33,260 bases of DNA from Gemmatimonadota bacterium (GTDB lineage: Bacteria > Gemmatimonadota > Gemmatimonadetes > Gemmatimonadales > Gemmatimonadaceae): NCBI GenBank assembly GCA_021299375.1, contig JAJTGR010000056.1, positions 1 through 33,260 of the forward strand. Reading direction: 5' to 3'. A program made the translations under genes and the position numbers. Positions 5,255-24,040 of this stretch are shown in pieces. Positions within the stretch are counted from its first letter, which is position 1, and each line of letters opens with the position of its first letter. The notes under the pieces were generated by a model. The model was not told the origin of the DNA. It saw nothing but the letters and a program-made list of their open reading frames with translations, and searched no databases.

Positions 5255-5616
5255 ACGGACGCCGTGGGCCGGTGAGTCGTGGGGAGTGACGGAAGCGCCG
5301 GATGCCTCGCGGCGAGGGGACGAAGCACGGCAGACAAGGTATCAGCGGGTAACGGATTGCGTGTCCACCCCGCACGTGCACCCTCTGCCTGCCGCGCGCG
5401 TGACCGGCGGCAGTACGAGACACGCCGCCGGTGTGACGCGGTGTTTCAGTGCCGGCCATGAGCTTCAGAATGTCCGGACCTGTGCACGGCCCATGACAGC
5501 CGTCGCGCGTGGAGCCCCCCAGCATACGTGCACGCTAAGGGCAGCTCAGTGGTGGAACGCTGCTCGCGGAGGGGCATCCTCCGATCGGCGCACCACACCA
5601 TTCACCGAGTACGTCT
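5255..5616. other. Divergent intergenic region, 362 bp
   Basis: This stretch separates the - strand operon (start 5254) from the lipoprotein gene (start 5617), so it should carry promoters for both directions. No convincing -35/-10 pair can be read by eye. It holds a perfect inverted repeat at 5403-5432 (listed separately) and a tRNA D-arm-like stretch near 5543-5563 that does not extend into a tRNA. I see no protein gene in it. Confidence 0.6.
5403..5432. repeat. Perfect 9-bp inverted repeat in divergent intergenic region
   Basis: Arms ACCGGCGGC (5403-5411) and GCCGCCGGT (5424-5432) with a 12-base spacer. It sits 149 bp from the - strand gene start and 184 bp from the + strand lipoprotein start. 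It could be an operator or a leader hairpin. No T-run follows, so a simple terminator is unlikely. Confidence 0.45.
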
Positions 5617-6222
5617 ATGTTCACCTCGCTTCGCGCACGCCTCACGCCGCGCCTTGCCCGCACGCTGCTGTTCGCGGGTGCCGCCGGGCTGGCTCTGGGA
5701 ACCGCCGCGTGCACCACGGACGGGCCGACCAGCCTGCCCTCTCAATCGGCCAGCCTCGCCAGAGCGGCGGTCAGCAACAGCGCCTTGGCCGCGGAAGTCA
5801 CGGCGCTGGCGTGGACGAAGCCGGCCAAGGAACGGACCGCGTCGGCCGTGATCGGCAAGGCTGGCGGCGAGCTCAAGATCCCCAGCGGCGCGCGCCTCGT
5901 CGTGCCGGCCGGTGCCGTGAGCGGCAACGTCACGTTCCGCGTCACGCAGGTCGCCGGTTCGATCGTGGCCTACGATTTCGAGCCGCATGGCATCACCTTC
6001 GCGGTGCCGCTGGTGCTCGAGCAGCCGGTCAACGGTACGAACTTCGGAGGCTTCACCGGCACCGCGGTGCGTGGCGCCTACTACAAGGATGCGGGGCAGC
6101 TCGACCAGCGCACTGGCAAGGCCATGGTCGACGAGTTCCGCCCGACGCTGATTTCGACGGACAAGAAGTGGATCCGCTTCTCCGTCGATCACTTCTCCGG
6201 GTACATCGTGGCGATGGACTGA
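5617..6222 (+). CDS. Lipoprotein with ZU5-like beta domain
   Basis: A 201-residue lipoprotein. The N-terminus has Arg residues, a hydrophobic core and a lipobox G-T-A-A-C with the modified Cys at residue 32. The mature part contains I-G-K-A-G-G-E-L-K-I-P-S-G at about 78-90, then V-V-P-A-G-A-V-S-G-N-V-T-F-R-V-T. This is the strand pattern seen in ZU5-like domains of bacterial surface lipoproteins (G-G-x-L...L-x-I-P-x-G-A-L). Later strands (G-I-T-F, P-L-V-L, D-H-F-S-G-Y-I-V-A) complete a beta sandwich. The role is unknown; a cell-envelope interaction module is likely. It is probably monocistronic or paired with the small ORF that follows. Confidence 0.85.
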   Translation: MFTSLRARLTPRLARTLLFAGAAGLALGTAACTTDGPTSLPSQSASLARAAVSNSALAAEVTALAWTKPAKERTASAVIGKAGGELKIPSGARLVVPAGAVSGNVTFRVTQVAGSIVAYDFEPHGITFAVPLVLEQPVNGTNFGGFTGTAVRGAYYKDAGQLDQRTGKAMVDEFRPTLISTDKKWIRFSVDHFSGYIVAMD

Positions 6223-6265
6223 GCGGCGACGTTCGCCGGTCTTCCCCTTCTTCTTCCCCTCATCC

Positions 6266-6478
6266 ATGCGCGTTCGCACTTCGTCGTGCCCTCGTCGCCG
6301 GTCCGCCTTCGGTGGACTGGCCCTGGCGGCCGCGACCACGATGGCGGCGCCGGAATCGCTCGCGCTCGATCCGGAGGCGTCAGTCGACGCCGGGCGCTCA
6401 GCCCCGGAGCTGTTCAGCGGATGGCACCACCCGGCGGGGCGTGCCGTGCTCGCCGGCTACACCGTGGTCGCCGACTAG
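6266..6478 (+). CDS. Doubtful 70-residue exported peptide
   Basis: A short ORF 43 bp after the lipoprotein. It has a basic start (R-R-R), a hydrophobic stretch (G-G-L-A-L-A-A-A-T-T-M-A-A) resembling a signal peptide, and a short mature part with W-H-H-P. Third codon positions are about 83% G or C, similar to real genes here, which supports coding, but I recognise no family and the length is short. A 7-bp hairpin lies just beyond its stop. It may be a small secreted protein or the remnant of a larger one. Confidence 0.35.
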   Translation: MRVRTSSCPRRRSAFGGLALAAATTMAAPESLALDPEASVDAGRSAPELFSGWHHPAGRAVLAGYTVVAD

Positions 6479-6496
6479 ACAAGCAGGTTCTCCTCA

Positions 6497-6516
6497 CGGT
6501 GCGCGTTTCCGCACCG
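6497..6516 (+). terminator. Short hairpin after the 70-residue ORF
   Basis: Arms CGGTGCG (6497-6503) and CGCACCG (6510-6516) are perfectly complementary around a 6-base loop, starting 19 bp after the stop at 6478. No T-run follows. It could end the lipoprotein transcript before the large signalling gene, or be chance in GC-rich DNA. Confidence 0.3.
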
Positions 6517-6725
6517 ATGGCCGGCGAAGTCTCTCGCCGTGCCGTCGGTGCGGTTTCGGTTCGGGGGTGACGTCCTGCGGCACGTCGGCGTCCTGCAGAT
6601 CGAAGATCCTGCGTTGTCGTGCCGACACTCCCCGCCATGCCCGTTCGCTTCGCCCCCGCTCTGATTGCACTCCCGCCCGATGGCGCCGCCGGGCCGCTGG
6701 CGCACGGTGTCTGGAGTGCGGTGCC

Positions 6726-9700
6726 ATGAGCCGCTCGGCGCACCCGCGAGGCCTGACGCTGGCACGGCTGGCGACCGCCGATTCTCCGGCGCCGGTCACG
6801 ACGCGCGCGTGCGAGGTGCTGCTGGAGGAAGGGCAGGCCGCCGAGCGGCGCGGGCAGCGAGCGGAGGCCCGGGCCCTGTACGAACAGGCGCTGGGGTCAC
6901 TCCGCACCGAGGCGGACGGAGCGCGTACGTCCACGATCCTGCGCTGGATCGCCCGCACGTATGTGGGCGATGCGCAGATGGACGCGGCGCTCGATTGCCT
7001 GAACGCCGCGGTCGCGATCGCCGAGGCCTGCGGTGACGAAGGGGCTGCCGGCAGTGCGATCAACATTCAGGCCGTGGTGCACTGGCAGCTGGGCGACCTC
7101 GACGAGGCCGAGCGCCTCTATCTCACCGCGCGCACGCGCGCCCTGCGGGCGGGCGATGCGAAGCTGGCCGCGATGACGGCACAGAACCTCGGGGTCATTG
7201 CGAATGTGCGCGGTGAACTCACGGAGGCACGCCAGCACTACGAGGCGAGCCTCGAGGAGTATCGCGCGCTCGGATCGGCGAAGGACATGATCGGCGCCCT
7301 CAACAACCTCGGGCTGCTGCACACCCACACCCAGGACTGGGCGGCGGCGGAGCATGCCTTTGGGGAGGCCATACGCATCAGCGAGTTGCAGGATGATGTG
7401 AGCACCCGGATGCTGATCGATGTCAACCTTGCGGAGATGTGGGTGGCGCGGCAGGACTACGGACGTGCTCACGTTGCCGTCCGGCACGCGATGGAGCTTG
7501 CGAATCGCTCCGGCGATGGCAGCTCCATGGGGCAGGCGAGCAAGCTCCTGGGCGTCATCGCGCGGGAAACCGGCGACCCCGCCGACGCCGAGGAGCACTT
7601 CCGTCGCGCCGAGGAGATCGCGGCAACGCGCCAGGACATGCTGCTGCAGGCCGAGGTGGCCCGCGAGGCGGGCGAACTCGCGCGGCGTCAGGGGCATAAC
7701 AAGGATGTGCTCCGGTACCTCAATCGTGCTCACCGCCTCTTCGCGCAGTTGCGGGCCCGGCGGGATCTGGCCGACATCGACCGGCGCAACAGCGAGCTCG
7801 AGGCCGAGTTCCTGCAGGTGGCGCGGCGCTGGGGTGAATCGATCGAAGCCAAGGACCGCTACACGCAGGGCCATTGCCTGCGCGTGGCCGACCTGGCGTG
7901 TGCCATGGCCGCAGATCTGGGGATGGCCGATCAGGACCTGTTCTGGTTCCGCATCGGCGCCCTGCTGCACGACGTCGGCAAGATCGTCATTCCCGAGGCG
8001 GTGCTGAACAAGGCGGGGAAACTGACCGACGCCGAGTGGGCGCTCATGCGAAGCCACACCACGGCGGGGGTGGACATGCTTGCCGGCGTGGAGTTCCCAT
8101 GGGACGTGCTGCCCATCATTCGCTCGCATCATGAGAAATGGGACGGCACGGGCTACCCCGATCAGCTCCGGGGAGAGGCGATCCCACTCGTCGCCCGCAT
8201 CTTGTGTGTGGCCGACGTGTACGACGCCCTGACCAGCACCCGCAGCTACAAGCGCGCGCTCGCGCATGTGGATGCGGTCGAGATCATGCGGCGCGATGTC
8301 GGTGTGATGTTCGATCCTGCCGTCTTCGCGTCGTTCGAACGGGTGGTCTCGGCGTGGGCGTTGCGCACCGAGCCGGCGGTGTCAGCTCCCGTGGCCCCGG
8401 AGCCCGAGGCGGCGGCACCGGCGGCGGCACCGCCGGCGGCACCGGTCCCGGAGCTTGACGACCTGACCGCGCTGCCCCTGCGTCGGGCGTTCCGCGAAGC
8501 CGCCGAGCGGGTGCTCGATGCGCGTCGGACGACCGAGCGCCCGGTGTCGCTGCTGGTCATGGACATCGATCACTTCAAGCTGGTGAACGACTGCTTCGGT
8601 CACCAGCAGGGGGACGATGCCCTCCGGATGGTCGCGACGCTGCTGCAGCAGGCCGCGCGCCGCAGCGACTTTATCGCCCGGTATGCGGGTGACGAACTGG
8701 TGGCGCTCCTGCCGGGGAGCACCCTCGAGGACGCCGTCGCCATGGCGGAGCATCTGCGGGCCGGCGTGGAGTGCGCCTCCTGCCCCCGACGGGACGGATC
8801 GCCGGATCCGGTACGGGTGACGTTGTCGATCGGCGTGGCCTCGGCCCCGACCCATGGGCAATCGTTCGATGAGTTGTTCGCCGCGGCCGATGGGGCGCTC
8901 TACGCTGCGAAGCGCCGCGGCCGCAACGCAGTGGCCATGGCCAGCGCCACGACCGGCTCGCCTGAGGCGGCGCTGCTGCTGGACGGCTTCATTGGACGCC
9001 ACGCGGAGCGGCAGCGGCTGCGCCAGCTGCTCGAGGTGGCCGCCAACGGTGCGCCCCGGGTGGTTGCGGTCGTGGGCGAAGCGGGGATCGGCAAGTCGAC
9101 GCTGTTGCGCCAGCTCGGTCCCGAGATCGGTGTGCGCGCCGGCGCACTGCTGGTGGGGCGCTGCCTCGAGGCCGATGTGCGTCCACCCTACGGGCCATGG
9201 GCCGACGTGATCGGGGCCATCCACGCCCTCGGCCTCGTGCCGCTGCGCCCGTGGCGCGAGCTCGGTCGGCTGGTGCCGGCGTTGGGGGCTCCCGCCGATC
9301 GGCCGGAGACCCCGGTGGCAGCGTCGGCAGCCCGCTATACCCTCATGCACGAGATCGAGGAGTACCTCACCCGCGCGGCCACCGCGCGGCCGTTGGTGAT
9401 CGTGCTCGACGATATGCACTGGGGCGACCGCGAAACGTGGGACGTGCTCGAACTGCTGGTGCCGCGCCTTTCCGGCCAGCGCCTGCTGCTCTGCCTCGCC
9501 CTGCGGCGCGAAGATGTCCCAGCGGACGTCGCCCAGCGGATGTCCCGCCTGTCGCGTCATGAGTGCGTGAGTGAACTGACGCTCGGTCGCCTGTCGCACG
9601 ACGAGTTGGAGCACTGGTTGCGCAGCGCCCTCGGCGGCCGCCCCCTCGACTCGGCGCTGCTTGACCACGTGGCGGATCACACCGAGGGGAACCCGCTCTT

Positions 9701-11585
9701 TGCGGTGCAGTCGCTGCAGATGCTGCTCGAGGAAGAGGTGCTGTCCTTCGATGACGGCGCATGGCGGTATCGCCCGCAGGCGGAACAGCCAATGCCGACC
9801 GCCGTGCGCGAGTTGCTCACCCGGCGGCTCGCGCGGCTGTCCGACGCCACGCGGGAGGTACTCACGGCCGCCGCCATCGTGGGCACCCGGTTCGACGCCG
9901 ACCTGCTCCTCGCGACGACTACGCGCGACGAGGGGACGGTGCTCGAGGCGCTCGACGAAGGCGTACGCGTTCAGGTGCTCACGTCGGGTGCGCCGGACAG
10001 TCCGACCACGTACGAGTTCACGCACGGACTGCTGGCGGATGTCCTGCGCCGGTCGGGCAATCCGCTGCGGATGCGACGCATGCACGAACGTGTGGCGCGG
10101 CTGCTCGCCGCACGCCCGACCTCAGCCCCCGCCGACATCGCGACCCACTTCGATCAGGCCGGGTGCGGCCCCGAAGCGCTCAGCCAAGCCGTGTGCGCTG
10201 CCGATCGGGCCATGTCGGTGTACGCCTACGATGCGGCGGCCACCTGCCTGACGCTGGCGTCGCGGCATACGGTCACCCCGGTGGAGCACGCCGATGTCGT
10301 GTGGCGCCAGGCCATGCTCGACGAAACGGTCGGACGCTATGAGAAGGCCGAGCGGCACTGCGAGGCGTTGCTCACTGAGCACGGTGCAGGCGCCACGGCG
10401 ATCGGCGTGACCCGGAAGGCCCGCCGCATGGTACAGCGACTGCGGTTGCTGCGTGGTGCCTCGGCGGCCGAGGTGGGCATCAGCTGCCAGCAGCTGTACG
10501 AGGCGGCGCTCGCCGCCGACGATCACGCGGAGTCGGTCGCGCTGCTGATGATGCTGTCGCAGGTGCACGGCCGGCTGGGGAACGACGCCGAGGCCGAGCG
10601 CACGGCCAGCACAGCGGTAAGCGTGGCCCGGTCGCTCGGTGACACGGCCCTGCTGGCCGACGCTATCATGCGCGAAGGCTCGGCCATGCTGACCACGGCC
10701 CCGGCCGATACCGTGCGCCACTATCGCCAGGCGCTCGACCTGTTCACGCAGCGCCACGACCGGCGTGGCCAGCTGCGCTGCCAGATCAACATCGGCGTCG
10801 CGTGTGACCGGGCCGGGAATCACCCGGCCGCCGAGCTGGCCTACGCCAGCGCCCTCGACATTGGCCGCGAGGTCCAGGCCGCGGACCTCACGGCGCTGGC
10901 ATCCATGAACCTGGGCGTGCTGCTGATGAAGCTGGGCCGCTTTACCGAGGCGTCCCAGCGATTCGAGGACACCCTGCGGAGCGCGAGCGCCGCACACCAC
11001 GAGCCGCACCGGCTGGGTGCGCTGTACAATCTCGCGCACCTGGCGCGCGAGCGCGGCGACCCGGCCGGTGCCACCGAGCGGTATGGCGCGGCGATCCGGC
11101 TCGCGCGCCAGCTGGGGCAGCTCGACATCCACGTGGGGGCGACCTGCGGCATCGGGCTCGCTGAGCTGGCCCTCGGGCGCCTCGCCTCAGCCCGCGCCCA
11201 GTTGCAGGCCGCGCAGTCCATTCTCGACGGGCGGCCACAGTGGTTCCAGGGGCGCGAACTGTTTGTGGCCCTCGGGGTGCGGCTGCAGCTGGCCGCGGGG
11301 GCGACCGACAACGCAGTGCGGACGCTCTGCGACACGCTGGCGGTGGCAGATGGATTCGATTCGTACGCCGCCGTCTGGCTGGCCGCCGAGTGCGCCGCGG
11401 CCGTGCGTGCCGTCGGTGGGCCCCCGGACCGGTGGCACGCGGTCAATGCCCGGTACACCGTGCATGCGCGGGCACTTGGGTATGCGCCACTCCTGGACCG
11501 CCTGGCGGGGACCACACCGGAACACCGGATGCCCGAGGGCGGTCTGGCGGACGGTGAGGCCCCGAGCGGACGCTTCGCCGCCTGA
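6726..11585 (+). CDS. TPR / HD-GYP / GGDEF-type / STAND ATPase / TPR fusion signalling protein
   Basis: A 1619-residue cytoplasmic protein with no signal peptide or membrane helix. Domains in order: TPR repeats (about 28-365); an HD-GYP phosphodiesterase (about 372-535) with His383, H415-D416, H468-H469 and G476-Y477-P478; an Ala/Pro-rich linker (about 555-578); a diguanylate-cyclase-type domain (about 580-745) with M-D-I-D-H-F-K at 612-618, signature A-G-D-E-L at 654-658 and an upstream R-x-x-D inhibitory site at 645-648; and an AAA/STAND ATPase with Walker A G-E-A-G-I-G-K-S at 784-791 and Walker B ending D895-D896. More TPR-like helices run to the end. HD-GYP domains degrade and GGDEF domains make cyclic di-GMP; both sites look largely intact, though A-G-D-E-L departs from G-G-D-E-F. 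There is no DNA-binding domain. The ATG at 6726 is the first in-frame Met near the TPRs; the frame is open far upstream but overlaps the lipoprotein. Confidence 0.93.
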   Translation: MSRSAHPRGLTLARLATADSPAPVTTRACEVLLEEGQAAERRGQRAEARALYEQALGSLRTEADGARTSTILRWIARTYVGDAQMDAALDCLNAAVAIAEACGDEGAAGSAINIQAVVHWQLGDLDEAERLYLTARTRALRAGDAKLAAMTAQNLGVIANVRGELTEARQHYEASLEEYRALGSAKDMIGALNNLGLLHTHTQDWAAAEHAFGEAIRISELQDDVSTRMLIDVNLAEMWVARQDYGRAHVAVRHAMELANRSGDGSSMGQASKLLGVIARETGDPADAEEHFRRAEEIAATRQDMLLQAEVAREAGELARRQGHNKDVLRYLNRAHRLFAQLRARRDLADIDRRNSELEAEFLQVARRWGESIEAKDRYTQGHCLRVADLACAMAADLGMADQDLFWFRIGALLHDVGKIVIPEAVLNKAGKLTDAEWALMRSHTTAGVDMLAGVEFPWDVLPIIRSHHEKWDGTGYPDQLRGEAIPLVARILCVADVYDALTSTRSYKRALAHVDAVEIMRRDVGVMFDPAVFASFERVVSAWALRTEPAVSAPVAPEPEAAAPAAAPPAAPVPELDDLTALPLRRAFREAAERVLDARRTTERPVSLLVMDIDHFKLVNDCFGHQQGDDALRMVATLLQQAARRSDFIARYAGDELVALLPGSTLEDAVAMAEHLRAGVECASCPRRDGSPDPVRVTLSIGVASAPTHGQSFDELFAAADGALYAAKRRGRNAVAMASATTGSPEAALLLDGFIGRHAERQRLRQLLEVAANGAPRVVAVVGEAGIGKSTLLRQLGPEIGVRAGALLVGRCLEADVRPPYGPWADVIGAIHALGLVPLRPWRELGRLVPALGAPADRPETPVAASAARYTLMHEIEEYLTRAATARPLVIVLDDMHWGDRETWDVLELLVPRLSGQRLLLCLALRREDVPADVAQRMSRLSRHECVSELTLGRLSHDELEHWLRSALGGRPLDSALLDHVADHTEGNPLFAVQSLQMLLEEEVLSFDDGAWRYRPQAEQPMPTAVRELLTRRLARLSDATREVLTAAAIVGTRFDADLLLATTTRDEGTVLEALDEGVRVQVLTSGAPDSPTTYEFTHGLLADVLRRSGNPLRMRRMHERVARLLAARPTSAPADIATHFDQAGCGPEALSQAVCAADRAMSVYAYDAAATCLTLASRHTVTPVEHADVVWRQAMLDETVGRYEKAERHCEALLTEHGAGATAIGVTRKARRMVQRLRLLRGASAAEVGISCQQLYEAALAADDHAESVALLMMLSQVHGRLGNDAEAERTASTAVSVARSLGDTALLADAIMREGSAMLTTAPADTVRHYRQALDLFTQRHDRRGQLRCQINIGVACDRAGNHPAAELAYASALDIGREVQAADLTALASMNLGVLLMKLGRFTEASQRFEDTLRSASAAHHEPHRLGALYNLAHLARERGDPAGATERYGAAIRLARQLGQLDIHVGATCGIGLAELALGRLASARAQLQAAQSILDGRPQWFQGRELFVALGVRLQLAAGATDNAVRTLCDTLAVADGFDSYAAVWLAAECAAAVRAVGGPPDRWHAVNARYTVHARALGYAPLLDRLAGTTPEHRMPEGGLADGEAPSGRFAA

Positions 11586-11702: not shown

Positions 11703-12548
11703 CTACGGGCCAGTCAGCCGATCGGCGAGACGGGCCACCGCCAGTACGGTGAGCACCAGCAGCAGCGCCGGCGCCATCGCGACCCACCACGCGCTCCCCA
11801 GGTAGGCCACGCCGTCCTGCAGGATCGTGCCCCAGCTGGGCGTGGGCGGACGCACCCCGAGACCCAGGAAGGACACGCCCGCCTCCACCGCCAGCAGATC
11901 GGCCAGCAGCGTGGCGCTGGCGGCGCCCACCACCCGCGTCAGTTGCGGGGCCACGTGGTGCACCAGTACGCGTCGCGGCGGCACACCAAGCGCCTCCGCG
12001 GCCCGCACGAATTCGCGGGCGCGCACCGCGCGCGCTTCGGTGTAGACCACCTGCGCCAGCGCCGTCCAGCTTCCGGCCCCCAGCAGCAACGCCAGCATGA
12101 GCACCGACGGGTGTGGCACCACCAGCATGATGGCCAGCAGCAGCAGCTTCCGCGGTATCGCCCGCAGCGCATCGGCCATATCCATCAGCAGGCCACCGAC
12201 AACGGACCCGCTCGAGGCGGCCATCACCCCCCATGCGGTCGCGAGGATCGTGGCGACCACCGTGGCCAGCCCGCTCACCGCGAGCGACACGCGGCCGCCG
12301 TGGAGCAGGCGGCTCAGCAGGTCGCGCGAGTAGGGATCGGTCCCCAGGGGGTGCGCAAGACTGGGGGGGGCATTCTTGAGCCCCACGATGTCCAGCTGCT
12401 GCGAGGGGTCGTAGGGGGCGAGCCACGGGGCCGCCACGGCCGAGAGGACCATCAGCACCAACAGCGCGGTGGACAGCGGCAGGCGTCGTGCCAGCCATCG
12501 CGGCCGCGCCAACGGCGGCGCGTACCCGGCGCGCAGCACGACACTCAT
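11703..12548 (-). CDS. ABC transporter permease, DppC/OppC type
   Basis: A 281-residue inner-membrane permease of the dipeptide/oligopeptide/nickel importer class. The N-terminus has one membrane helix (about 25-42), then A-P-Y-D-P and the class hallmark H-P-L-G-T-D-P-Y-S-R-D-L-L-S-R-L-L-H-G. About five further helices follow, with the ATPase-coupling loop A-E-A-L-G-V-P-P-R-R in the second half. The ATG at 12548 overlaps the stop of the upstream permease (ATGA); the frame is open further but that part shadows the other permease. It forms the channel with the DppB-type partner. No ATPase gene is next to it. Confidence 0.92.
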   Translation of the reverse strand: MSVVLRAGYAPPLARPRWLARRLPLSTALLVLMVLSAVAAPWLAPYDPSQQLDIVGLKNAPPSLAHPLGTDPYSRDLLSRLLHGGRVSLAVSGLATVVATILATAWGVMAASSGSVVGGLLMDMADALRAIPRKLLLLAIMLVVPHPSVLMLALLLGAGSWTALAQVVYTEARAVRAREFVRAAEALGVPPRRVLVHHVAPQLTRVVGAASATLLADLLAVEAGVSFLGLGVRPPTPSWGTILQDGVAYLGSAWWVAMAPALLLVLTVLAVARLADRLTGP

Positions 12549-13531
12549 GGGCGAGGCGTCTCGTCGGTGCGCAGCCGCGGATCGAGCCGCGACACCAGCA
12601 GCTCGGTGAGCAGCGATCCCGCCGCCACCGCCGCCGACACGACGATCACGATGCCGCCCACCAACGGCGCGTCGCGCAACGTGACCGCCTGCACCAGCAG
12701 TGACCCCATGCCGGGCCACGAGAAGAGCGACTCCACGACGATGGTTCCACCGACCACGGCCGGGAGCATCGTGCCCAGCAGCGCCACGCTGCCCGCCACC
12801 GACGGACGGAGCACATGCCGCATGAGCAGCCGCCACGGGGCAACCCCGCGTGCCCGAGCCGCACGGACGTGCGGGTCAGCCGCCATGGCGCGCACCGCCT
12901 GGCGCTGCTGCCGCACAAGCCCGGCGCTCCATGACAGCGCCAGCGCGGTGGCCGGGAGCACCAGATGCCAGCCCCGATCGCGCCAGCGGACCATTCCGGA
13001 ACCGGTGAGCGCCACCAGCGGATCGTCGAGTCCGCCGGCGGGGAAGAGGCCAAGGTGCAGGGCGAACACGGCCAGGAGCGCGGTACCGAGCACGACCTCG
13101 GGCATGGCATACCCCGCGGTGAGTGCCGTGGCCGCGACGCGCGCCCCACGGCTGTCCGGGCGCCAGCCGTGGAGCGTACCGATGCACATACCCAGCAGGG
13201 TCGCGAGGACCAGGGCGGTGCCGGAGAGCAGGACCGTGGCCGGCAGCGCGTCGCCAAGGACGGCGACGACGGGCCGGCCTTCGCTGCTGGAGACGCCCAG
13301 CCGACCGCGCAGCACGTCGCCGGCGTAGCGGGCGAGTTGCACCGGCAGCGGCCGCTCCAGACCCAACCGCTCGGCCAGCGCCGCCCGCGCGGCCACCGAA
13401 CGCCCACGCCCCTCCACCGACCCGGTTGTGGCATCCCCCGGAGCCAGGCGCAGCAGCGCGAAGCTGGCGGTCGTCGCCAGCAGGACGACCAGCACCGACC
13501 GGCCCACCCGCCGGATGATCGACACGCGCAT
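12545..13531 (-). CDS. ABC transporter permease, DppB/OppB type
   Basis: A 328-residue permease with the DppB-type layout. An N-terminal helix (about 9-27) ends in L-R-L-A-P-G-D, a periplasmic region contains E-R-L-G-L-E-R-P-L-P-V-Q, and about five further helices follow. The coupling loop A-A-R-A-R-G-V-A-P-W-R-L-L is at about 215-227, and V-E-S-L-F-S-W-P-G-M-G, typical of this subfamily, is near 270. It is the first gene of the - strand permease pair and diverges from the binding-protein gene with 103 bp between starts. The substrate class is probably peptides, but nickel or other small solutes use the same fold. Confidence 0.92.
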   Translation of the reverse strand: MRVSIIRRVGRSVLVVLLATTASFALLRLAPGDATTGSVEGRGRSVAARAALAERLGLERPLPVQLARYAGDVLRGRLGVSSSEGRPVVAVLGDALPATVLLSGTALVLATLLGMCIGTLHGWRPDSRGARVAATALTAGYAMPEVVLGTALLAVFALHLGLFPAGGLDDPLVALTGSGMVRWRDRGWHLVLPATALALSWSAGLVRQQRQAVRAMAADPHVRAARARGVAPWRLLMRHVLRPSVAGSVALLGTMLPAVVGGTIVVESLFSWPGMGSLLVQAVTLRDAPLVGGIVIVVSAAVAAGSLLTELLVSRLDPRLRTDETPRP

Positions 13532-13575
13532 GACGCAAAGTCTCGACTGGGTGCGACCGATACTTCATCGCGAGG

Positions 13576-13598
13576 GGCGGGTGTCCGCACGACCCGCC
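13576..13598. promoter_or_regulatory. Inverted repeat between divergent ABC importer genes
   Basis: Arms GGCGGGT (13576-13582) and ACCCGCC (13592-13598) with a 9-base spacer, 36 bp before the binding-protein ATG and 44 bp from the permease start. The position suits an operator shared by both directions or a leader hairpin. No matching repeat was noticed elsewhere in the window. Confidence 0.35.
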
Positions 13599-13634
13599 TC
13601 CGGCCCCCTTCGTTCCCGATTCGCCGACCTCGCC

Positions 13635-15317
13635 ATGACGACGTCCGTTCGCCCCCGCCTCGCCCACCCGGTCTCCACGCCCTGCGCCTTCCTGCTTGGC
13701 CTCCTCCTCACCGGAGCCTGCGGTGAACGGGCCGCGGGCGATGCCGTCGCAGATCCGGCCAGCACAGCCGGCGTCGTGATTGCCACGGCCGCCGACGCCG
13801 ATGCCCTAGTGCCGCCGCTCGTCGCCACGACGGCCGGCAAGCAGGTCGTCGATCTGCTCTTCGATCATCTCGCCGAGCCGACGTCGACCCGCGTCCGGAC
13901 CGATGGCGATGCCGGCTTCGCGCCGCGCCTCGCCCACCGCTGGCAGTGGTCGGCTGACTCGCTCTCGATTGCCTTCGCGCTCGATTCGGCGGCGCGCTGG
14001 CACGACGGACGCCCGGTGACCGCCGCCGATGTGCAGTTCTCGTTTGCGCTGTACACCGATCCGGCCGTGGGGTCGATGCACGCGCGCGGTTTCGATGGCA
14101 TCGATTCCGTGACTGTGCGGGACACCCACACGGTGGTGGCGTGGTGGCACCGGCGGCACCCCGAGCAGTTCTTCCAGTTCGTCTACAATCTTGCCGTGAT
14201 GCCGAAGCACCTGCTCGATACCGTGCCGCGCGATGGCTTGCTGGCGTCGGCGTACGCGAGCGCCCCGGTGGGGAGTGGGCGCTACCGTTTCGGCACGTGG
14301 GAACGCAAGCGGCGGCTGGTGCTGGTGGCCGACAGCGTGAACTATCGCGGGCGCCCCCGCTTCGATCGGGTGATCTGGTCGGTGGCGCCCGATCCCAATA
14401 CGGCCACGATGGCGGTGCTCACCGGTCAGGCCGATGTGTTGGAGGTGCTGCGCGGTGATGCGGTCGGCAAGGTGGCCGCCACGCCGACGCTCAAGGCCGT
14501 CGAATACGGCAGCCTCGATTACGGCTATCTCGCGCTCAACCATCGGGCCCCACGCGGGCGCGCATCGCTGTTCGCCGATCGGGCGTTGCGGCTCGCGCTG
14601 ACGCAGGCCATCGATCGTGGTGCCGTGGTGCGGAATGCGCTGGATTCGCTGGGGCGGGTGGCGCTGGGCCCCTTCACGCGCTCCGACGTCACGGTCGACA
14701 CGACCGCTCTCGGCATCGCCTTCGATTCCGCGGCCGCGGGTCGGGCGCTCGACTCGCTCGGGTGGCGTCGGGTGGCCGGGAATCCGGTGCGGGTGAAGAA
14801 CGGCCGCCCGCTGCGCTTCGCCATGTTGGTGCCGGCCTCGAGCGGCACCCGCAGGAAGCTGGCGGTGCTGCTGCAGGGCCAGCTGGCCGCGGCCGGCGTG
14901 GGCGTCGAGATCGAGCCGGTGGACGCGGGCGTGTTTGCCAGCCGGCTGCAGCAGGGCGACTTCGAGGCGGCACTCAACGTGTGGCGGAACGACCCCAGCC
15001 CCTCGGGGCTCCGGCAGGCCTGGGGCGCACCCAAGGGCGACGATGTCGGGGCCAATTTCGGGCGCTATGCGAGCGCCGCGTTCGACGCCACACTGGACAG
15101 CGCGATCGCGACCTTCGAGCCGGCCGCGCGCACGACGCTGTTCCGGCGCGCCCACGCCCTCCTCGTGGCCGACGCGCCCGCAATCTGGCTGTACGAACCG
15201 CGCAACCTCGCCGCCGTGCATACCCGGCTGGTGCCGGTGGGGGTACGCCCCGATGCCTGGCTGGCGCAGCTTGGCGACTGGCGCGCCGACGGTACCCGGA
15301 CGGCGGCGGCGCGGTAG
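13635..15317 (+). CDS. ABC transporter substrate-binding lipoprotein, SBP family 5
   Basis: A 560-residue periplasmic solute receptor tethered by lipid. The signal peptide ends in a lipobox L-T-G-A-C with Cys29. The mature protein follows the family 5 pattern: V-V-D-L-L-F-D-H-L-A near 75, W-H-D-G-R-P-V-T-A-A-D-V-Q-F-S near 120, P-V-G-S-G-R-Y-R-F near 213, and L-A-L-N-H near 298 followed by R-L-A-L-T-Q-A-I-D-R. Family 5 proteins bind di- and oligopeptides, nickel or opines. The ATG at 13635 is used because it places the signal peptide correctly; the frame is open upstream. It diverges from the two permeases and is convergent with the IclR gene. Confidence 0.93.
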   Translation: MTTSVRPRLAHPVSTPCAFLLGLLLTGACGERAAGDAVADPASTAGVVIATAADADALVPPLVATTAGKQVVDLLFDHLAEPTSTRVRTDGDAGFAPRLAHRWQWSADSLSIAFALDSAARWHDGRPVTAADVQFSFALYTDPAVGSMHARGFDGIDSVTVRDTHTVVAWWHRRHPEQFFQFVYNLAVMPKHLLDTVPRDGLLASAYASAPVGSGRYRFGTWERKRRLVLVADSVNYRGRPRFDRVIWSVAPDPNTATMAVLTGQADVLEVLRGDAVGKVAATPTLKAVEYGSLDYGYLALNHRAPRGRASLFADRALRLALTQAIDRGAVVRNALDSLGRVALGPFTRSDVTVDTTALGIAFDSAAAGRALDSLGWRRVAGNPVRVKNGRPLRFAMLVPASSGTRRKLAVLLQGQLAAAGVGVEIEPVDAGVFASRLQQGDFEAALNVWRNDPSPSGLRQAWGAPKGDDVGANFGRYASAAFDATLDSAIATFEPAARTTLFRRAHALLVADAPAIWLYEPRNLAAVHTRLVPVGVRPDAWLAQLGDWRADGTRTAAAR

Positions 15318-17824: not shown

Positions 17825-20800
17825 ATGCCCCGTCCCAGCCCAAACGCCCACGTCACCGCCCTGCTGTGGGGCGGTGGGTTGGCCGTCCTCGCGGCCACCG
17901 CGGCCCCCGCACTCGCCCACTCGTCGGCTACGCTGGGGGCCTCCCCTTCGGTCGTCCCACGCCTGCAGACCGATTCCATCACCGGAACCGTGACCGACAC
18001 CCGCGGCCGTCCCGTCGAAGGCGCGCGGGTGCTGGTGGTGGGCACCAGCGCCACGGCACTCACCGACCCCCGTGGCCGCTTCCGCCTCACCGGCATTGGC
18101 GGTACCGATCGAACCGTGCGGGTCACCGCCATCGGCTATCAGTCGCAGTCGCGAACCATTGGCGCGGGGAGCGCCACGCTCGCCTTCGTGCTCGGCGAGC
18201 TCTCGGTGAAGCTCGATGAGGTGGTGGTCACGGGGACAGCGGGCACCGTGGAGCGCCGAGCGGTGGGCAATGCAATCACCAAGATCGATGCCCGCGGCAC
18301 CCTGGAGCGGATGCCGGTGACCGACGTGTCACAGCTCATGAACGGGCGCGCCTCGAACGTGGTGCTCACCGCGAACTCGGGCATGGCGGGTGCGGGAACG
18401 AAGGTCAACATCCGTGGCCGCAACAGCCTCGCGCTGTCCGGGGCGCCGCTCGTGTACGTGGATGGCATCCGGGTGGACGCCGCGCAGGCCTCCGGCCCGA
18501 CGGTTCAGGGGGCGAACGTCGTCTCCCGCCTCAACGACATCAACCCGGCAGACATCGAGTCCATCGAGGTGATCAAGGGGCCCGCAGCGGCCACCCTCTA
18601 TGGCACCGAGGCGTCCAACGGGGTGATCCAGATCATCACCAAGTCCGGGCGTACCGGAGACAGGGCCCGCTTCACCTTCACGGCGGATCAGGGGACGAAC
18701 GAGTTCACGGACCCGGCCGGACGCATCCCGACCAACTATGCGCGCTCGCCGCAGGGGCAGATCCTCTCGTTCAACGCCGTGGACAACGAACGGACGTTGG
18801 GGAACGACATCTGGCGCACCGGCCAGTTCCAGCGGTACGCCCTCGGCATCGATGGCGGCTCGGGGCCGGTCAGCTATCGCGTGGGCGGCGTCCTGCAGGA
18901 TGACGAAGGGATCGACCTCAACAACCGGCAGCAGCAGTCGTCGCTCCGCGCCAACCTCCAGTTCCTGCCGCGCCCTACCCTGACGGCTCGTCTCGACCTG
19001 GGCGTGGTGACGGGCAAGACCAGCTTTGCCCCGCAGGAAGGGATCGGCGCCCCGCTGTTCAGTGCGCTCAACGCCCAACCGCTGACCGCGGGTAGCCCCA
19101 GCCGTGGCTTCTTCCAGGCGCCGCCCGAGGTGCTGTACGGCGTCAACGACGTCTTTCAGCTGCTGCAGCGCACCACCGTGTCCGCCCAGCTGCAGCACCA
19201 GCTGGGCAGCCGCCTCACGCAGCGGCTCAACATCGGCACCGACCTGGTGCAGGAGAACAATCAGAACATCGTGCGCCGCATGACCCCGGATCAGGCGCGC
19301 TTCTACAGCCCGGCGGTCGCAGCGGGGCGCAAGGATGTGCAGTTGCGCGACGCACGCACCAACACGCTGGACTACAGCGCCTCCTACAACGCCACGCTCC
19401 GGGAGGGGCTGACCAGCCAGACCAGCGTGGGCGCGCAGTACTTCGGCCGCCTCACGCGCTTCACCACGGTCAGCGGCCAGCAGTTCCCCGCACCGGGGCT
19501 CAGCACCATTCTGGGCACCGCGGTGCGCACCGGCGGCGACGATTACATCGAGAACACCACCATCGGAACGTACGCCCAACAGCAACTGGGATGGCGCAAC
19601 CGCCTCTTCGTGACCGGCGCCGTCCGCGTGGACAACAACAGCGCCTTCGGCACCGACTTCCAGGCCGCCACCTATCCCAAGGTCAGCACCAGCTGGGTGG
19701 CCAGCGAAGAAGGGTGGTGGAAAGGCGGCGTGATGAACACGCTCAAGCTGCGCGCCGCCTACGGTGCCGCCGGCCAACAGCCCGACGCCTTTGCGGCGCT
19801 GCGCACACTGGGGCCCGTGACCGGCCCCAGTGACCAGCCGGCGCTCACCACGCAGGCCGTGGGCAACCCCGACCTCAGGCCCGAGCGGGGCACCGAGCTG
19901 GAGCTGGGTTTCGACGCGGGACTCTTCCAGGACCGCGTGGCCATGGAGTTCACCTGGTTCCGGCAGAATCGCCGCGACGCGATCGTGCTGGCGCCGGTCC
20001 CTCCCTCGAGCGGCTTCATCGGCACGCGCTTCACCAACCTCGGGGCCATCCGCAACGACGGCTTCGAGCTCCGCACCACGGTGGCGGTGCTCAATGGCCA
20101 ACGGCTCGGGTGGGATCTCACCGCCACGCTCAACTCGAACGAGAACGAGATCACCGATCTGGGCGGGCAGCCGCCGATCTTCGTGGGCACCTTCCCGCGC
20201 GCCCAGCAGCACCGCGTGGGGTTCCCGGTGGCGGCCTTCTTCGGACAGCGGCTGACCAGCGCCACGCTGGATGCCAACGGACAGGCCACCGACCTCCAGT
20301 GCGAGAGCCCCGCCGGCCCCACACCCTGCGCCACCGCGCCGCTCACCTTCCTGGGCCGCTCCACCCCCAGGTACGAGGGCGCGGTGACCTCCACCGTGCG
20401 CCTCGGCCAGCGGCTCCGGCTGTACACCATGGTCGACTTCCGGCAGGGGATGCGCCGCTTCGCCACCAACCTCTGGGCGCGCTGCACGGTGTTCCGGCTG
20501 TGCCGGCAGAACTACTATCCGCAGGAGTTCGATCCGCGTGACGTGGCGTACGCGCAGCGCGGCAGTGCGCTGGTGCTCACCAGCGGCTTCATCAACGACG
20601 CCTCCTTCGCCAAGCTGCGCGAGATCTCGGTGTCGTACGACCTGCCCGATGTCCTCGCCCGCCAGGTCCGCGCCTCGCGCGCCTCGCTGCTGCTGGCCGG
20701 CCGCAATCTCTACACCTGGACCCGCTGGACGGGGCTGGACCCGGAGACGGAACAGCCGGGTGGCTTCGGCGAGCTGACTGCCAGCGAGCAGGCCAACCTG

Positions 20801-20845
20801 CCGCTCCCGCGGCAGGTGCGGTTCTCTCTCAACCTGACCTTTTGA
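17825..20845 (+). CDS. SusC/RagA-type TonB-dependent outer-membrane transporter
   Basis: A 1006-residue outer-membrane nutrient channel. The signal peptide covers about residues 1-31 (A-L-A-H cut region). A CarboxypepD-reg-like beta domain follows (about 50-125), with I-T-G-T-V-T-D-T-R-G-R-P-V-E-G-A. The TonB box region L-D-E-V-V-V-T-G is at about 131-138, and the plug (about 140-270) contains V-N-I-R-G-R-N-S and V-Y-V-D-G-I-R. The beta barrel runs to the terminal L-N-L-T-F, ending in Phe as outer-membrane barrels do. SusC proteins import oligosaccharides or peptides with a SusD lid using TonB energy. The associated peptidases point to peptides. It is the first gene of the long + strand operon. 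Confidence 0.95.
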   Translation: MPRPSPNAHVTALLWGGGLAVLAATAAPALAHSSATLGASPSVVPRLQTDSITGTVTDTRGRPVEGARVLVVGTSATALTDPRGRFRLTGIGGTDRTVRVTAIGYQSQSRTIGAGSATLAFVLGELSVKLDEVVVTGTAGTVERRAVGNAITKIDARGTLERMPVTDVSQLMNGRASNVVLTANSGMAGAGTKVNIRGRNSLALSGAPLVYVDGIRVDAAQASGPTVQGANVVSRLNDINPADIESIEVIKGPAAATLYGTEASNGVIQIITKSGRTGDRARFTFTADQGTNEFTDPAGRIPTNYARSPQGQILSFNAVDNERTLGNDIWRTGQFQRYALGIDGGSGPVSYRVGGVLQDDEGIDLNNRQQQSSLRANLQFLPRPTLTARLDLGVVTGKTSFAPQEGIGAPLFSALNAQPLTAGSPSRGFFQAPPEVLYGVNDVFQLLQRTTVSAQLQHQLGSRLTQRLNIGTDLVQENNQNIVRRMTPDQARFYSPAVAAGRKDVQLRDARTNTLDYSASYNATLREGLTSQTSVGAQYFGRLTRFTTVSGQQFPAPGLSTILGTAVRTGGDDYIENTTIGTYAQQQLGWRNRLFVTGAVRVDNNSAFGTDFQAATYPKVSTSWVASEEGWWKGGVMNTLKLRAAYGAAGQQPDAFAALRTLGPVTGPSDQPALTTQAVGNPDLRPERGTELELGFDAGLFQDRVAMEFTWFRQNRRDAIVLAPVPPSSGFIGTRFTNLGAIRNDGFELRTTVAVLNGQRLGWDLTATLNSNENEITDLGGQPPIFVGTFPRAQQHRVGFPVAAFFGQRLTSATLDANGQATDLQCESPAGPTPCATAPLTFLGRSTPRYEGAVTSTVRLGQRLRLYTMVDFRQGMRRFATNLWARCTVFRLCRQNYYPQEFDPRDVAYAQRGSALVLTSGFINDASFAKLREISVSYDLPDVLARQVRASRASLLLAGRNLYTWTRWTGLDPETEQPGGFGELTASEQANLPLPRQVRFSLNLTF

Positions 20846-20865
20846 GGCGCCCGGTGCCCATCTCC

Positions 20866-22146
20866 ATGACCACCCGTACCCGCGCCGCTCGCACGGCCGT
20901 GCGCGCCAGCGCCCTTGCCCTCGTTGCCATCACGGCGGCCTGCGGCTCCCTGCTCGAAGTCGATGTCCCCAGCCGAGTCCCTGCCGACGGCGCCGTCGTG
21001 CCGGCGAACGCCGCCATCCTCATGAACTCCGTGATCGGTGAGTTCGAATGTGCCTTTGGTGGGGCCGTGACGAGCGGCGGCACGTTGGGCGACGAGCTCT
21101 CCAACTCCTCCCCCGGCAACACCACCTGGCAGGTGGATCGCCGCGACATCGCCACCAGCTCCACCATCAGCACCGGGGGCTGTGGCGGGCTGGGCCCCTT
21201 TGGGGCCCTCAACGTCACACTCTGGCTCTCCGGTGAGTTGCAGAAGGGGCTGGAGTCGTGGAGCGATGCCCAGGTCACCAATCGGCGCCAGCTGCTCGCC
21301 ACCAACGCCGCCTACGCCGGGTATGCCCTGGTGCTCCTCGGCGAGCAGATGTGCACCGCGACTATCGATGCCGGACCGGAGCTGACCAAGGCGCAGGTGT
21401 GGACGCGCGCCGAGGAGCGCTTCACGGCAGCCATTGCCGACGCGCAGGCCAGCAACACCGCGGACATCCTCGCCATGGCGTATCTCGGCCGCGCCCGCGC
21501 CCGTCTCAACCAGGCCCGCTTCCCGGAGGCGGCGGCCGACGCGCGGCAGGTTCCCGCCAACTTCGTGCGGAACGCCACGTACTCCAGCGCAGACCCGCGC
21601 CGGTTCAACCCCGTGTTCAACAGCAACAACCAAGCCGCGGGGCTCACGGTGGGTCCGGTGTACCGGGCCATGACGTTCGCCGGCGTGCGGGACCCGCGGG
21701 TGCCCGTGACCAACGCCAACCGCACCGGCTCGAACAACTCGGACTCACTGTACTTGCAGACCAAGTACACGAGCCTCGCCGCTCCCATTCCCATCGCCAA
21801 GTGGGCCGAGGCGCAGCTGATCATCGCCGAAGCCGAGTTGGCGGCAGGCAACGTGGCGGCGGCGGTAGCGATCATCAATACGCTGCACGCCCGCACCACC
21901 CCCGCCCTGCCCCCGTTCGCTTCTACCTCAGCGGCCGAAGTGCGGGCCCAGCTCACGTACGAGCGGCGCGCCGAGCTGTTCCTCGAGTCGCAGCACCTTG
22001 GCGACTATCAGCGCCTGTCCCTTCCGTTCGTGCCGGCCACGGGCGCCCCGTTTCCCTTTGGCGGCGGCTTCTACGGCACCAATCGCTGCTTCCCGCTCCC
22101 CGACCTGGAGCGCACGACCAACCCCAACCTGAACGGCCAGCGATGA
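20866..22146 (+). CDS. SusD/RagB-type outer-membrane lipoprotein
   Basis: A 426-residue surface lipoprotein that forms the substrate-binding lid over SusC. The signal peptide ends with lipobox I-T-A-A-C (Cys26). Helical repeats in the middle resemble SusD TPR-like scaffolds (A-Y-L-G-R-A-R-A-R-L-N). The C-terminal SusD domain shows L-T-Y-E-R-R-A-E-L-F-L-E-S-Q-H-L-G-D-Y-Q-R-L, the best family signature. The ATG at 20866 gives a normal signal peptide; an in-frame TTG at 20842 overlapping the susC stop would add eight residues. Its stop overlaps the next start (ATGA). Compared with Bacteroides SusD proteins it is on the short side. Confidence 0.93.
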   Translation: MTTRTRAARTAVRASALALVAITAACGSLLEVDVPSRVPADGAVVPANAAILMNSVIGEFECAFGGAVTSGGTLGDELSNSSPGNTTWQVDRRDIATSSTISTGGCGGLGPFGALNVTLWLSGELQKGLESWSDAQVTNRRQLLATNAAYAGYALVLLGEQMCTATIDAGPELTKAQVWTRAEERFTAAIADAQASNTADILAMAYLGRARARLNQARFPEAAADARQVPANFVRNATYSSADPRRFNPVFNSNNQAAGLTVGPVYRAMTFAGVRDPRVPVTNANRTGSNNSDSLYLQTKYTSLAAPIPIAKWAEAQLIIAEAELAAGNVAAAVAIINTLHARTTPALPPFASTSAAEVRAQLTYERRAELFLESQHLGDYQRLSLPFVPATGAPFPFGGGFYGTNRCFPLPDLERTTNPNLNGQR

Positions 22147-23999
22147 CCGTCCCCACACGCCCCCGGGCGCTCGCCAGCGCCGTCCTGCTGCTTGCGGTCG
22201 CCCTGCCGCCGGCGCTGGCACCGGCCCGGGCCGAAGCGCAGGGACGCGCGCGGGAGCGGGCGTCCGGGGGCGTGGCGAGAGGAGACAGCGCCCGCATCAC
22301 CGCCATCGCCGACGCCCTGTGGGGGCGCATCGTGGCCAATGAGGCAGGGGTGCGCCTTCGCACCGGGTTGCCGGTGCGGCGCCTGCCGGTGCCGTCGCTC
22401 GAGGAAGCGGAGGAGGACGCGATCTTCGGGCAGCGGATTCTGGCGCAGCTGGACAGCGTCGGGCAGCCACCCGTGGGGAGCGAGGCCTGGAGTCTGGCGG
22501 CCGTCACGCGGGCGCGCGCGGACGTGATGGCCGCTGAAGCCGATGCCTTCTGGTTCCGCAACCCGGTCTCCCCGTATGCCAACGATTTCGTCGGGCTGCA
22601 CGCGATCCTGGGCGCCCAGCGCTTTGCGGCCCCCGACGACCTGACCCGCTACCTCGATCTGGCCGGGCAGTATGCCGGGGTCGTGGATGCGGTGCATGGC
22701 TACTTGCGGGGGCAGGTGCGGCACGGGTACCGCATGCCGAAGCTCGAGGTGATGGCGGCCGTCACGCTGCTGCGGCAGTTCCGCACCGAGCCCGTACGCA
22801 GCCCGCTGGCGGTGGCCGAGGCGCGGTTGCGCGGGGTCCGCGGGCAGGACAGCGCGGCCGTGGTGCGCTTTCAGGAGCAGCTGGCCGCTGAGGTGGTCGA
22901 CCGGGTGAACCCGGCGTTCGACCGGCTCATTGCGTGGCTGGAGGGGCCCTACCTGGCGGAGGCCCCCGTCACCGTGGGGCTCGCGCAGTATCCCGGGGGA
23001 GAGGCCCACTATCGTCGGCTGGTGCGCGCGTCGCTCACCTTCGACCGGACACCCGAGCAGATCCACGAGTTGGGGCTCCGCGAGATCGCACGCATCACCG
23101 CCGAACTGGACTCGATCCGCCAGACGCTCGGGAGTACGGCGGGGGATGCGGCAGGGCACACGGGCACGCGCGACGCGTTTCATCAGTACCTGCGCACGGC
23201 CCCACGCTTCGTGCCCTCCTCCCCCGACGTCATGCGCGACAAGATGCTGGGGCATCTGGCCTCGCTGCGCCCTCGGCTGGGCGAGCAGTTCGCCGACATC
23301 CCCCGCGCCCCGTACGATGTGCGACGACTGGACCCGTCGCTGGAGGCGGGGATGACCTACGGCTACTACCGCCAGCCATCGGCCGCCGACTCCACGGGGG
23401 TGTACTTCTTCAACGGCGGGCAGCTCGCGCAGAAGACCACGGTCTGGTTCGAGGGGCTGGCCTACCACGAGATTCTCCCCGGGCACCACTTCCACCTGGC
23501 GCTGGTGCAGGAGGTGCTGGCCAACAAGCATCCGCTGCGCCGCAACTATGCCAGCACGGCCTACACGGAGGGGTGGGGCGAGTACGCGGCAGCGCTGGCC
23601 GAGCTGATGGGGGGCTACCGCGATCCGTACGACCGCTACGGACGCCGCATCATGGAACTCAACAGCGCGGCGCGGCTGGTGCTCGACACCGGGCTCAATC
23701 TGCTCGGATGGAGCCACGAGCGCGCCATCGCCTACCTGCGCGCGAACTCGGTGATCTCCGACGCCGAGGTGGCGTCGGAAGTGCTGCGCTACTGCTGCGA
23801 CATTCCCGGCCAGGCGCTGGGCTACCGGATGGGCATGTTGACGTTTCAGCGCCTGCGCACGCGCGCCGAGCAGGCGTTGGGGCCGCGCTTCGACCCGCGC
23901 GCTTTCCACCGGGTGATTCTGGCCGACGGGCCGCTGCCCTTCTTCGCGCTCGAGCAGCGCGTAGACGCGTGGGTGGCCCAGCAGCGAGGCACTCGCTGA
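22143..23999 (+). CDS. DUF885 family exported metallopeptidase-like protein
   Basis: A 618-residue exported protein. The signal peptide has a hydrophobic core at about 10-26 and probable cleavage after A-E-A at residue 32. The rest is helical and fits DUF885. The zinc-site-like motif H-E-I-L-P-G-H-H begins at His442-Glu443, with His448/His449, and E-G-W-G-E-Y begins at Glu476 and could supply a further ligand. Proteins of this family are believed to be metal-dependent peptidases with an HExxxGH variant of the usual motif; biochemical evidence is thin. The ATG overlaps the susD stop. It is likely periplasmic and acts on material entering through SusCD. Confidence 0.9.
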   Translation: MTVPTRPRALASAVLLLAVALPPALAPARAEAQGRARERASGGVARGDSARITAIADALWGRIVANEAGVRLRTGLPVRRLPVPSLEEAEEDAIFGQRILAQLDSVGQPPVGSEAWSLAAVTRARADVMAAEADAFWFRNPVSPYANDFVGLHAILGAQRFAAPDDLTRYLDLAGQYAGVVDAVHGYLRGQVRHGYRMPKLEVMAAVTLLRQFRTEPVRSPLAVAEARLRGVRGQDSAAVVRFQEQLAAEVVDRVNPAFDRLIAWLEGPYLAEAPVTVGLAQYPGGEAHYRRLVRASLTFDRTPEQIHELGLREIARITAELDSIRQTLGSTAGDAAGHTGTRDAFHQYLRTAPRFVPSSPDVMRDKMLGHLASLRPRLGEQFADIPRAPYDVRRLDPSLEAGMTYGYYRQPSAADSTGVYFFNGGQLAQKTTVWFEGLAYHEILPGHHFHLALVQEVLANKHPLRRNYASTAYTEGWGEYAAALAELMGGYRDPYDRYGRRIMELNSAARLVLDTGLNLLGWSHERAIAYLRANSVISDAEVASEVLRYCCDIPGQALGYRMGMLTFQRLRTRAEQALGPRFDPRAFHRVILADGPLPFFALEQRVDAWVAQQRGTR

Positions 24000-24004
24000 T
24001 TCCC

Positions 24005-24026
24005 GCGGGGGCCACTCGGCCCCCGC
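24005..24026 (+). terminator. Hairpin inside the operon, between the DUF885 and S9 genes
   Basis: A perfect 9-bp stem GCGGGGGCC (24005-24013) and GGCCCCCGC (24018-24026) around an ACTC loop, starting 6 bp after the DUF885 stop and ending 14 bp before the S9 start. No T-run follows, so it is more likely an mRNA stabiliser or partial attenuator than a full terminator. It is the only strong hairpin seen between genes of this operon. Confidence 0.45.
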
Positions 24027-24040
24027 ACTCTCTACCGGTC

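Follow-up and report, generated by a model that had tools for sequence, protein, structure and literature searches.

The locus analysed here raises the question of what a single protein does that joins domains for both the synthesis and the breakdown of c-di-GMP to a STAND ATPase and two TPR arrays. It lies in a Gemmatimonadota bacterium of the family Gemmatimonadaceae (assembly GCA_021299375.1, contig JAJTGR010000056.1); the window means the whole stretch of 33,260 nucleotides that was analysed. Little is known of how c-di-GMP enzymes that lack PAS, GAF, REC or membrane sensors are controlled, and Gemmatimonadota are a phylum with little-studied signalling; the top-ranked paper retrieved for c-di-GMP in this phylum mentions the messenger in its reference list only.

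Reading frame and domain organisation

An ATG-started frame at 6726-11585 on the plus strand runs through 1619 codons without a stop. The mechanical open reading frame begins upstream at GTG 5286. The in-frame extension 5286-6725 was discarded as non-coding, because a real lipoprotein gene read in a different frame (5617-6222) overlaps it. The 1619-aa protein showed neither a signal peptide nor a match to a DNA-binding family. Its most hydrophobic 19-residue stretch averages 1.45 on the Kyte-Doolittle scale, below the level of a membrane helix. This is in agreement with an earlier sequence-only reading, which had described one soluble chain of 1619 residues without membrane or DNA-binding domain; its coordinates and domain order are borne out by the open frame and by Pfam. 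The features of the gene are as follows.

6726..11585, plus strand: whole gene, TPR-HD-GYP-GGDEF-STAND-TPR protein, 1619 aa (open frame; Pfam; full-length relatives)
6801..7760, plus strand: N-terminal TPR array, residues ~26-345 (Pfam TPR_12 and others; all-helical model, pLDDT mostly >90)
7818..8348, plus strand: HD-GYP phosphodiesterase domain, residues ~365-541 (Pfam HD_5 1.6e-36; PDB phmmer 5z7c, 4mcw)
8454..8939, plus strand: GGDEF diguanylate cyclase domain, residues 577-738 (Pfam 5.6e-41; TIGR00254 4.9e-45; residue table)
8973..10385, plus strand: STAND/AAA_16 nucleotide-binding region and STAND subdomains, residues ~750-1220 (Pfam AAA_16 4.7e-26; Foldseek 6mfv)
9072..9101, plus strand: Walker A VGEAGIGKST, residues 783-792 (GK in 33/33 full-length proteins)
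9396..9422, plus strand: Walker B VIVLDDMHW, residues 891-899 (motif reading, family residue table)
10398..11525, plus strand: C-terminal TPR array, residues ~1225-1600, presumed STAND sensor (Pfam TPR_MalT/TPR_12; model pLDDT mostly >90)

Along the chain, the Pfam assignments are TPRs in the N-terminal third, HD_5/HD at 373-533, GGDEF at 577-734, AAA_16 at 755-921 and MalT-like TPRs at 1328-1539, with domain matches at E 1e-15 to 1e-41.

Catalytic residues

The HD-GYP domain possesses the HDxxK motif (HDVGK 415-419), the HHExxDGxGYP motif (HHEKWDGTGYP 468-478) and the metal-ligand set, with the catalytic and ligand residues D377, H383, H415, D416, K419, H444, H468, H469, D497 and D500. All of these except D377 were intact in 53/53 HD-GYP-bearing family members, and D377, which matches PmGH D183, is invariant in alignment A3. 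The catalytic set is that of PmGH (PMC4159591), except that the E185 ligand of PmGH is replaced by Y379 in the window protein and that Tyr occupies this position in 45/53 HD-GYP members. With no carboxylate there, the domain falls outside the trinuclear (E/D-T-G) HD-GYP subgroup; Y or F at this position marks the other, binuclear subgroup (PMC4159591), to which the window HD-GYP is predicted to belong.

The GGDEF domain carries the signature AGDEL (654-658), an RRSD inhibitory site (645-648) and GHQQGD, including the metal Asp D613, the GxxGD Asp D630 and the core G655-D656-E657. Thirty of the 33 full-length proteins keep this core (metal Asp, GxxGD, G-D-E), the window protein among them, and 27/33 keep the RxxD I-site. 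AGDEF is the family-wide signature, present in 26 of the 33 (AGDEL 2, AGDEM 1, GSDEF 3, GGDEF 1), and AGDEL is a minor variant of it. Three full-length members (L032, L036, L123) have degraded cyclase residues yet retain Walker A; cyclase and Walker A are thus not strictly tied. The sequence-only reading had reported intact HD-GYP catalytic and Walker motifs, an AGDEL signature and an R-x-x-D inhibitory site, all of which were found at their sites, with the HD-GYP and Walker motifs conserved over the family. In the window chain, an HD-GYP and a GGDEF with I-site, both residue-complete, are combined with a TPR-sensor STAND ATPase.

Predicted structure

In AlphaFold2 models of residues 1-745 (pLDDT 91.6) and 562-1619 (pLDDT 90.5), both TPR arrays form long solenoids, the HD-GYP and GGDEF domains are well formed and the core is of the AAA type. 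Domain search and structure prediction, proposed earlier as checks, agree with the domain calls. The best Foldseek match of the 562-1619 model in the PDB is 6mfv, PH0952, a STAND ATPase with a TPR sensor (E 1.8e-14), with low full-length TM-scores (0.22/0.33), as expected of a flexible multidomain model. The AAA_16 match, the Walker motifs and 6mfv together give the features of a TPR-sensor STAND protein, namely a nucleotide-binding domain with Walker A and B, a C-terminal repeat array and a PH0952/MalT-like fold. No HTH family was matched by Pfam, including the LuxR helix-turn-helix of MalT/LAL regulators; the C-terminus is TPR. GGDEF and TPR matches took up the whole VIA-align list of the STAND model, leaving it silent on the ATPase part. 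The C-terminal TPR aligns with Rap-pheromone structures at Z ~24-25, and an unrelated TPR protein (an APC/C subunit) aligns higher, at Z 28.

PH0952 and MalT are described as ADP-closed at rest; on inducer binding they become ATP-open and multimerise, and the sensor makes contacts with the core (PMC6468293). The sensor of these and other TPR-type STAND proteins is the C-terminal TPR (PMC6468293), and the earlier description of the chain as being without a sensor is probably wrong.

Distribution and history of the family

Family matches at E 1e-60 or better were present in 73/149 genomes, own genome counted. By domain content, 66 family proteins comprise 33 full-length proteins (window counted), 16 TPR-HD-GYP proteins, four TPR-HD-GYP proteins with a degenerate GGDEF and 13 separate GGDEF-STAND-TPR proteins of about 1020-1160 aa. 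Full-length relatives share 34-86% identity with the window protein, and the closest record with a name comes from a Gemmatimonas sp. MAG, at 86% identity over full length. Among 200 genomes drawn over the phylum, full-length matches were confined to the window's own family, with none of the full architecture outside it, and TPR-HD-GYP alone also occurred in further families within the order and the class. A genome contig scan, which detects close relatives only, returned the full architecture only in the Gemmatimonas record. Five genomes of other phyla gave single- or few-domain matches only, and no plasmid-borne copies were found at E 1e-40. The family is lineage-wide, with separate half-proteins, and no isolated oddity.

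These relatives also settle whether the assembly joined two separate genes, a sequencing join that the earlier reading had named as a threat to its claim. TPR-HD-GYP and GGDEF-STAND-TPR do occur as separate genes in relatives, as such an artefact would need, but many independent full-length copies have the same domain order and unbroken frames, including G020 (one contig) and G045 (four contigs). A join is already refuted by them, and we leave it practically no probability.

In the HD-GYP tree, most TPR-HD-GYP proteins of the order fall in a separate, starred clade, and the other side holds the full-length, truncated and TPR-HD-GYP-GGDEF forms. The TPR-HD-GYP-GGDEF forms are nested among the full-length ones and look like products of a later loss of the C-terminal part. 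In the ATPase-region tree, one branch (91/91) parts full-length from separate forms. The simplest reading is that a GGDEF-STAND-TPR gene fused once to an old TPR-HD-GYP gene to give the full protein, and that TPR-HD-GYP alone, the most widespread form, is ancestral; both trees have midpoint roots, so this history is an inference.

Nine of the 13 separate GGDEF-STAND-TPR proteins have lost the cyclase residues and the Walker A lysine together, and four retain both. The nine form one clade, which makes this a single event and not statistical proof of coupling. In this clade (L129-L134, L147-L149) Walker A reads GxGT/GxGS, a pseudo-enzyme version of GGDEF-STAND-TPR, and a ZU5-like lipoprotein gene still adjoins in most cases. 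A further cluster, L190:1575-7296 (G023), consists of SBP, DppB, DppC and TPR-HD-GYP, without GGDEF-STAND-TPR; its HD-GYP sequence is nearly identical to that of the full-length relative L027, and the short form is either a recent loss or an assembly break.

A ZU5-like lipoprotein gene upstream

The gene is preceded by the following feature.

5617..6222, plus strand: ZU5-like lipoprotein, lipobox Cys32, C-terminal HFSGY (alignment A4; linkage test)

The window lipoprotein reached 18.7 bits against Pfam ZU5 (PF00791, gathering score 21) and its relative L166 reached 21.6. It has a single BLAST match in its own genome. Across 90 genomes, 45/75 strong lipoprotein-profile matches lie within 2.5 kb of a family gene, 42/45 of them on the same strand; chance linkage is ~0.2% per match, and the profile was built from family-gene neighbours, which biases it toward linked copies. 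Around the remaining matches 20 sites were examined, and 12/20 adjoin a TPR-only, TPR-HD-GYP or STAND-TPR gene. In the window's genus, a strong copy (E below 1e-40) was present in 11/11 genomes with the family gene and in 0/19 without it. The lipoprotein gene lies mostly upstream of TPR-HD-GYP-type genes and downstream of separate GGDEF-STAND-TPR genes. The full-length gene L023/L167 has one lipoprotein gene on each side, as a fusion would leave.

At the lipoprotein C-terminus, HF-S/T-x-Y is near-invariant, with S or T at the third position in 49/49 distinct profile-alignment sequences. The motif is followed by 7-54 residues across the homologs (window plus L158-L167, L129-L151), 8 of them in the window. 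PIDD cleaves itself at HF/S (PMC3210808). By analogy, this family is a possible bacterial autoproteolytic lipoprotein, and the conserved motif may also be purely structural. In ZU5 domains, residues past the cut can stay in place as an integral piece of the fold, which makes the release of a peptide far from certain.

TPR-only proteins of ~350 aa also adjoin ZU5-like lipoprotein genes (L167:5155-6291, L141:4795-5838, L174:7982-9034, L175:8089-9159). TPR-only protein plus lipoprotein is the minimal form of the pairing, without an enzyme domain. No ZU5 lipoprotein with a TPR partner was found in the open-licence literature searched.

Peptide-type importer genes downstream

Three conserved or linked genes follow the family gene.

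11703..12836, minus strand: DppC/OppC-type ABC permease; the N-terminus of the ORF may be too long (Pfam BPD_transp_1, OppC_N; conserved neighbour)
12545..13531, minus strand: DppB-type ABC permease (Pfam BPD_transp_1; conserved neighbour)
13428..15317, plus strand: SBP_bac_5 (peptide/nickel type) solute-binding protein, SBP (Pfam 1.4e-60; linkage)

In 90 genomes, 12/12 best SBP matches (56-100% identity, window counted) lie within ~2 kb of a family gene; matches at 51% identity or less are mostly elsewhere, away from family genes. By these matches, the SBP belongs to one orthologous group. Several relatives have SBP, DppB, DppC and the family gene all running in the same direction, with a distance of ~30 bp between DppC and the family gene (L163, L164). 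The window's own DppBC genes lie on the opposite strand to the family gene. The SBP/DppB/DppC cassette is linked to the family gene across genera (window 11703-15317; L163:11987-15401; L164:11743-15049). No ABC ATPase gene was present among the neighbouring ORFs scanned.

Further downstream, the window encodes a SusC/SusD-like pair (TonB receptor plus SusD_RagB), then an S9 prolyl oligopeptidase and an M19 dipeptidase (17825-22146 and 22934-29178). This group, which lies beyond Dpp, has the appearance of a cluster for taking up and degrading peptides.

The linkage of importer and lipoprotein, neither of which the sequence-only reading had pointed out, suggests an envelope-derived input, which may be a peptide that is imported or the importer itself, and makes these neighbours concrete candidates for that input. 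MalT, which binds its inducer at the TPR region and is inhibited by the transporter subunit MalK, provides an earlier example of a STAND protein coupled to an ABC importer.

Proposed function

We propose that the protein is a soluble, ligand-gated STAND switch with opposing c-di-GMP activities that would flip between net hydrolysis and net synthesis, a reading to which we give about even weight for and against. The 1619-aa protein is probably the inner half of a sensing circuit with the lipoprotein and the importer. At rest, the STAND core would be ADP-bound, monomeric and held shut by the C-terminal TPR, with the unpaired GGDEF idle and HD-GYP degrading c-di-GMP. A ligand or partner on the TPR arrays would open the core to its ATP form, which would oligomerise and pair the GGDEF domains, making the protein a c-di-GMP source. 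Synthesis would be limited by product bound at RxxD. GGDEF enzymes require two domains face to face, and STAND multimerisation would therefore be a natural way of turning the cyclase on.

This mechanism is supported by the conservation of HD-GYP (53/53), GGDEF core (30/33), RxxD (27/33) and Walker A GK (33/33), by PH0952 as best fold match with its ADP-closed/ATP-open, multimerising cycle (PMC6468293), and by the linkage to SBP/DppBC and the ZU5-like lipoprotein. The single-fusion split (91/91) was counted in favour of this best explanation, as were the separate GGDEF-STAND-TPR proteins (nine with double loss, four intact). Counted against it were the ancestral gene with TPR-HD-GYP only, which may make hydrolysis the chief role, the three full-length members with degraded cyclase residues, the single-clade origin of the double loss, the low TM-scores of the PH0952 match and the lack of a PilZ match in the genome. 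ATP-driven control, an idea raised from the sequence alone, is backed by Pfam, by residue conservation in the 66 family proteins and by the STAND fold match; the control itself we infer. If the mechanism is true, c-di-GMP synthesis and breakdown would both be under a STAND ATPase, the class of switch found in MalT and NLR-type immune receptors, which would be a new control principle. The own genome (G000) encodes about a dozen GGDEF domains, yet no PilZ domain, and thus no PilZ receptor, was found in it.

Alternative explanations

The main rival is a phosphodiesterase in which HD-GYP is the sole output and GGDEF and STAND are regulatory, through GTP/ATP sensing and dimerisation. Hybrid proteins are known whose GGDEF binds GTP and activates the phosphodiesterase. 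The invariant HD-GYP residues in 53 members fit this account, as do a GGDEF that is degenerate in 4/4 TPR-HD-GYP-GGDEF and 3/33 full-length proteins and the ancestral, most widespread TPR-HD-GYP form. We nevertheless consider it rather unlikely, given the cyclase core in 30/33 and the I-site in 27/33 proteins; a mere GTP sensor would not need an I-site. Catalytic residues so strictly conserved also point to a need for catalysis, and this speaks against a protein that is mainly a scaffold, whose TPR arrays and STAND oligomers would recruit partners and whose enzymes would supply a local c-di-GMP pool at the transporter or envelope. Two TPR arrays, the role of STAND proteins as multimeric hubs (PMC6468293) and the tight gene linkage to envelope genes speak for such a scaffold, which we regard as improbable.

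The enzymes could also act on another cyclic dinucleotide, such as 3'3'-cGAMP, instead of c-di-GMP, and by sequence the HD-GYP domain indeed matches a 3'3'-cGAMP phosphodiesterase (5z7c) best among PDB entries. However, the second-best match is PmGH (4mcw), a c-di-GMP phosphodiesterase, and Asp is retained at GHQQGD residue 630, a position occupied by Ser in cGAMP-making Hypr cyclases; we hold this substrate to be very improbable. A bolder version of the switch would have the lipoprotein cut itself at HF/S, like PIDD, and free a C-terminal peptide (SGYIVAMD, 8 residues, in the window) or give a signal-sequence peptide, which SBP/DppBC would import and the TPR arrays of the STAND protein would bind, switching c-di-GMP output. 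The evidence for it consists of the HF/S motif and the gene linkage, and we treat it as a long shot; if true, it would give Gram-negative bacteria a counterpart to pheromone/RRNPP systems whose output is a second messenger.

Relation to known systems

Cyclase-STAND-TPR proteins are already known for cAMP/cGMP-type cyclases, and class III cyclase or kinase-AAA_16-TPR examples include the mycobacterial Rv0386 type and mammalian soluble adenylyl cyclase. In contrast to the class III cyclase proteins, the window protein has a diguanylate cyclase, not a cAMP/cGMP cyclase, and an opposing HD-GYP in the same chain. The TIGR03903 TOMM kinase/cyclase is similar in placing a cyclase ahead of a STAND NTPase and TPRs, and its model matches the window ATPase region best; the window protein scores 153.3 bits against a whole-model cut-off of 705.75 and lies outside that family. 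Similar to PH0952 and MalT, it has an AAA_16/STAND core followed by a TPR array and a presumed ADP/ATP switch. It lacks the LuxR-type DNA-binding output of MalT, and differs from both in possessing N-terminal GGDEF and HD-GYP domains plus a second TPR array. Bifunctional GGDEF-EAL and GGDEF/HD-GYP enzymes also unite opposing activities in one chain; unlike hybrid c-di-GMP enzymes, the window protein has no PAS, GAF, REC or membrane sensor and would be controlled by a STAND ATPase.

GGDEF or HD-GYP together with STAND/AAA_16 and TPR in one protein was not recognised in the open-licence literature searched, in line with the earlier remark that the architecture was not recognised as characterised. 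Each module is known; the five-part c-di-GMP protein and the three-part locus appear undescribed in that literature. Kaur et al. 2020 describe NTP-dependent conflict systems in which GGDEF occasionally stands in place of a cNMP cyclase in VMAP-type proteins (PMC7159879); those systems have other core proteins, partners and context, and no TPR-HD-GYP. Outside the phylum, a Desulfonema limicola MAG encodes a protein (L039:2152-5844) in which AAA_16 likewise directly follows GGDEF; it differs from the window protein in having neither HD-GYP nor N-terminal TPR, and shares ~25% identity with it over residues 570-1123.
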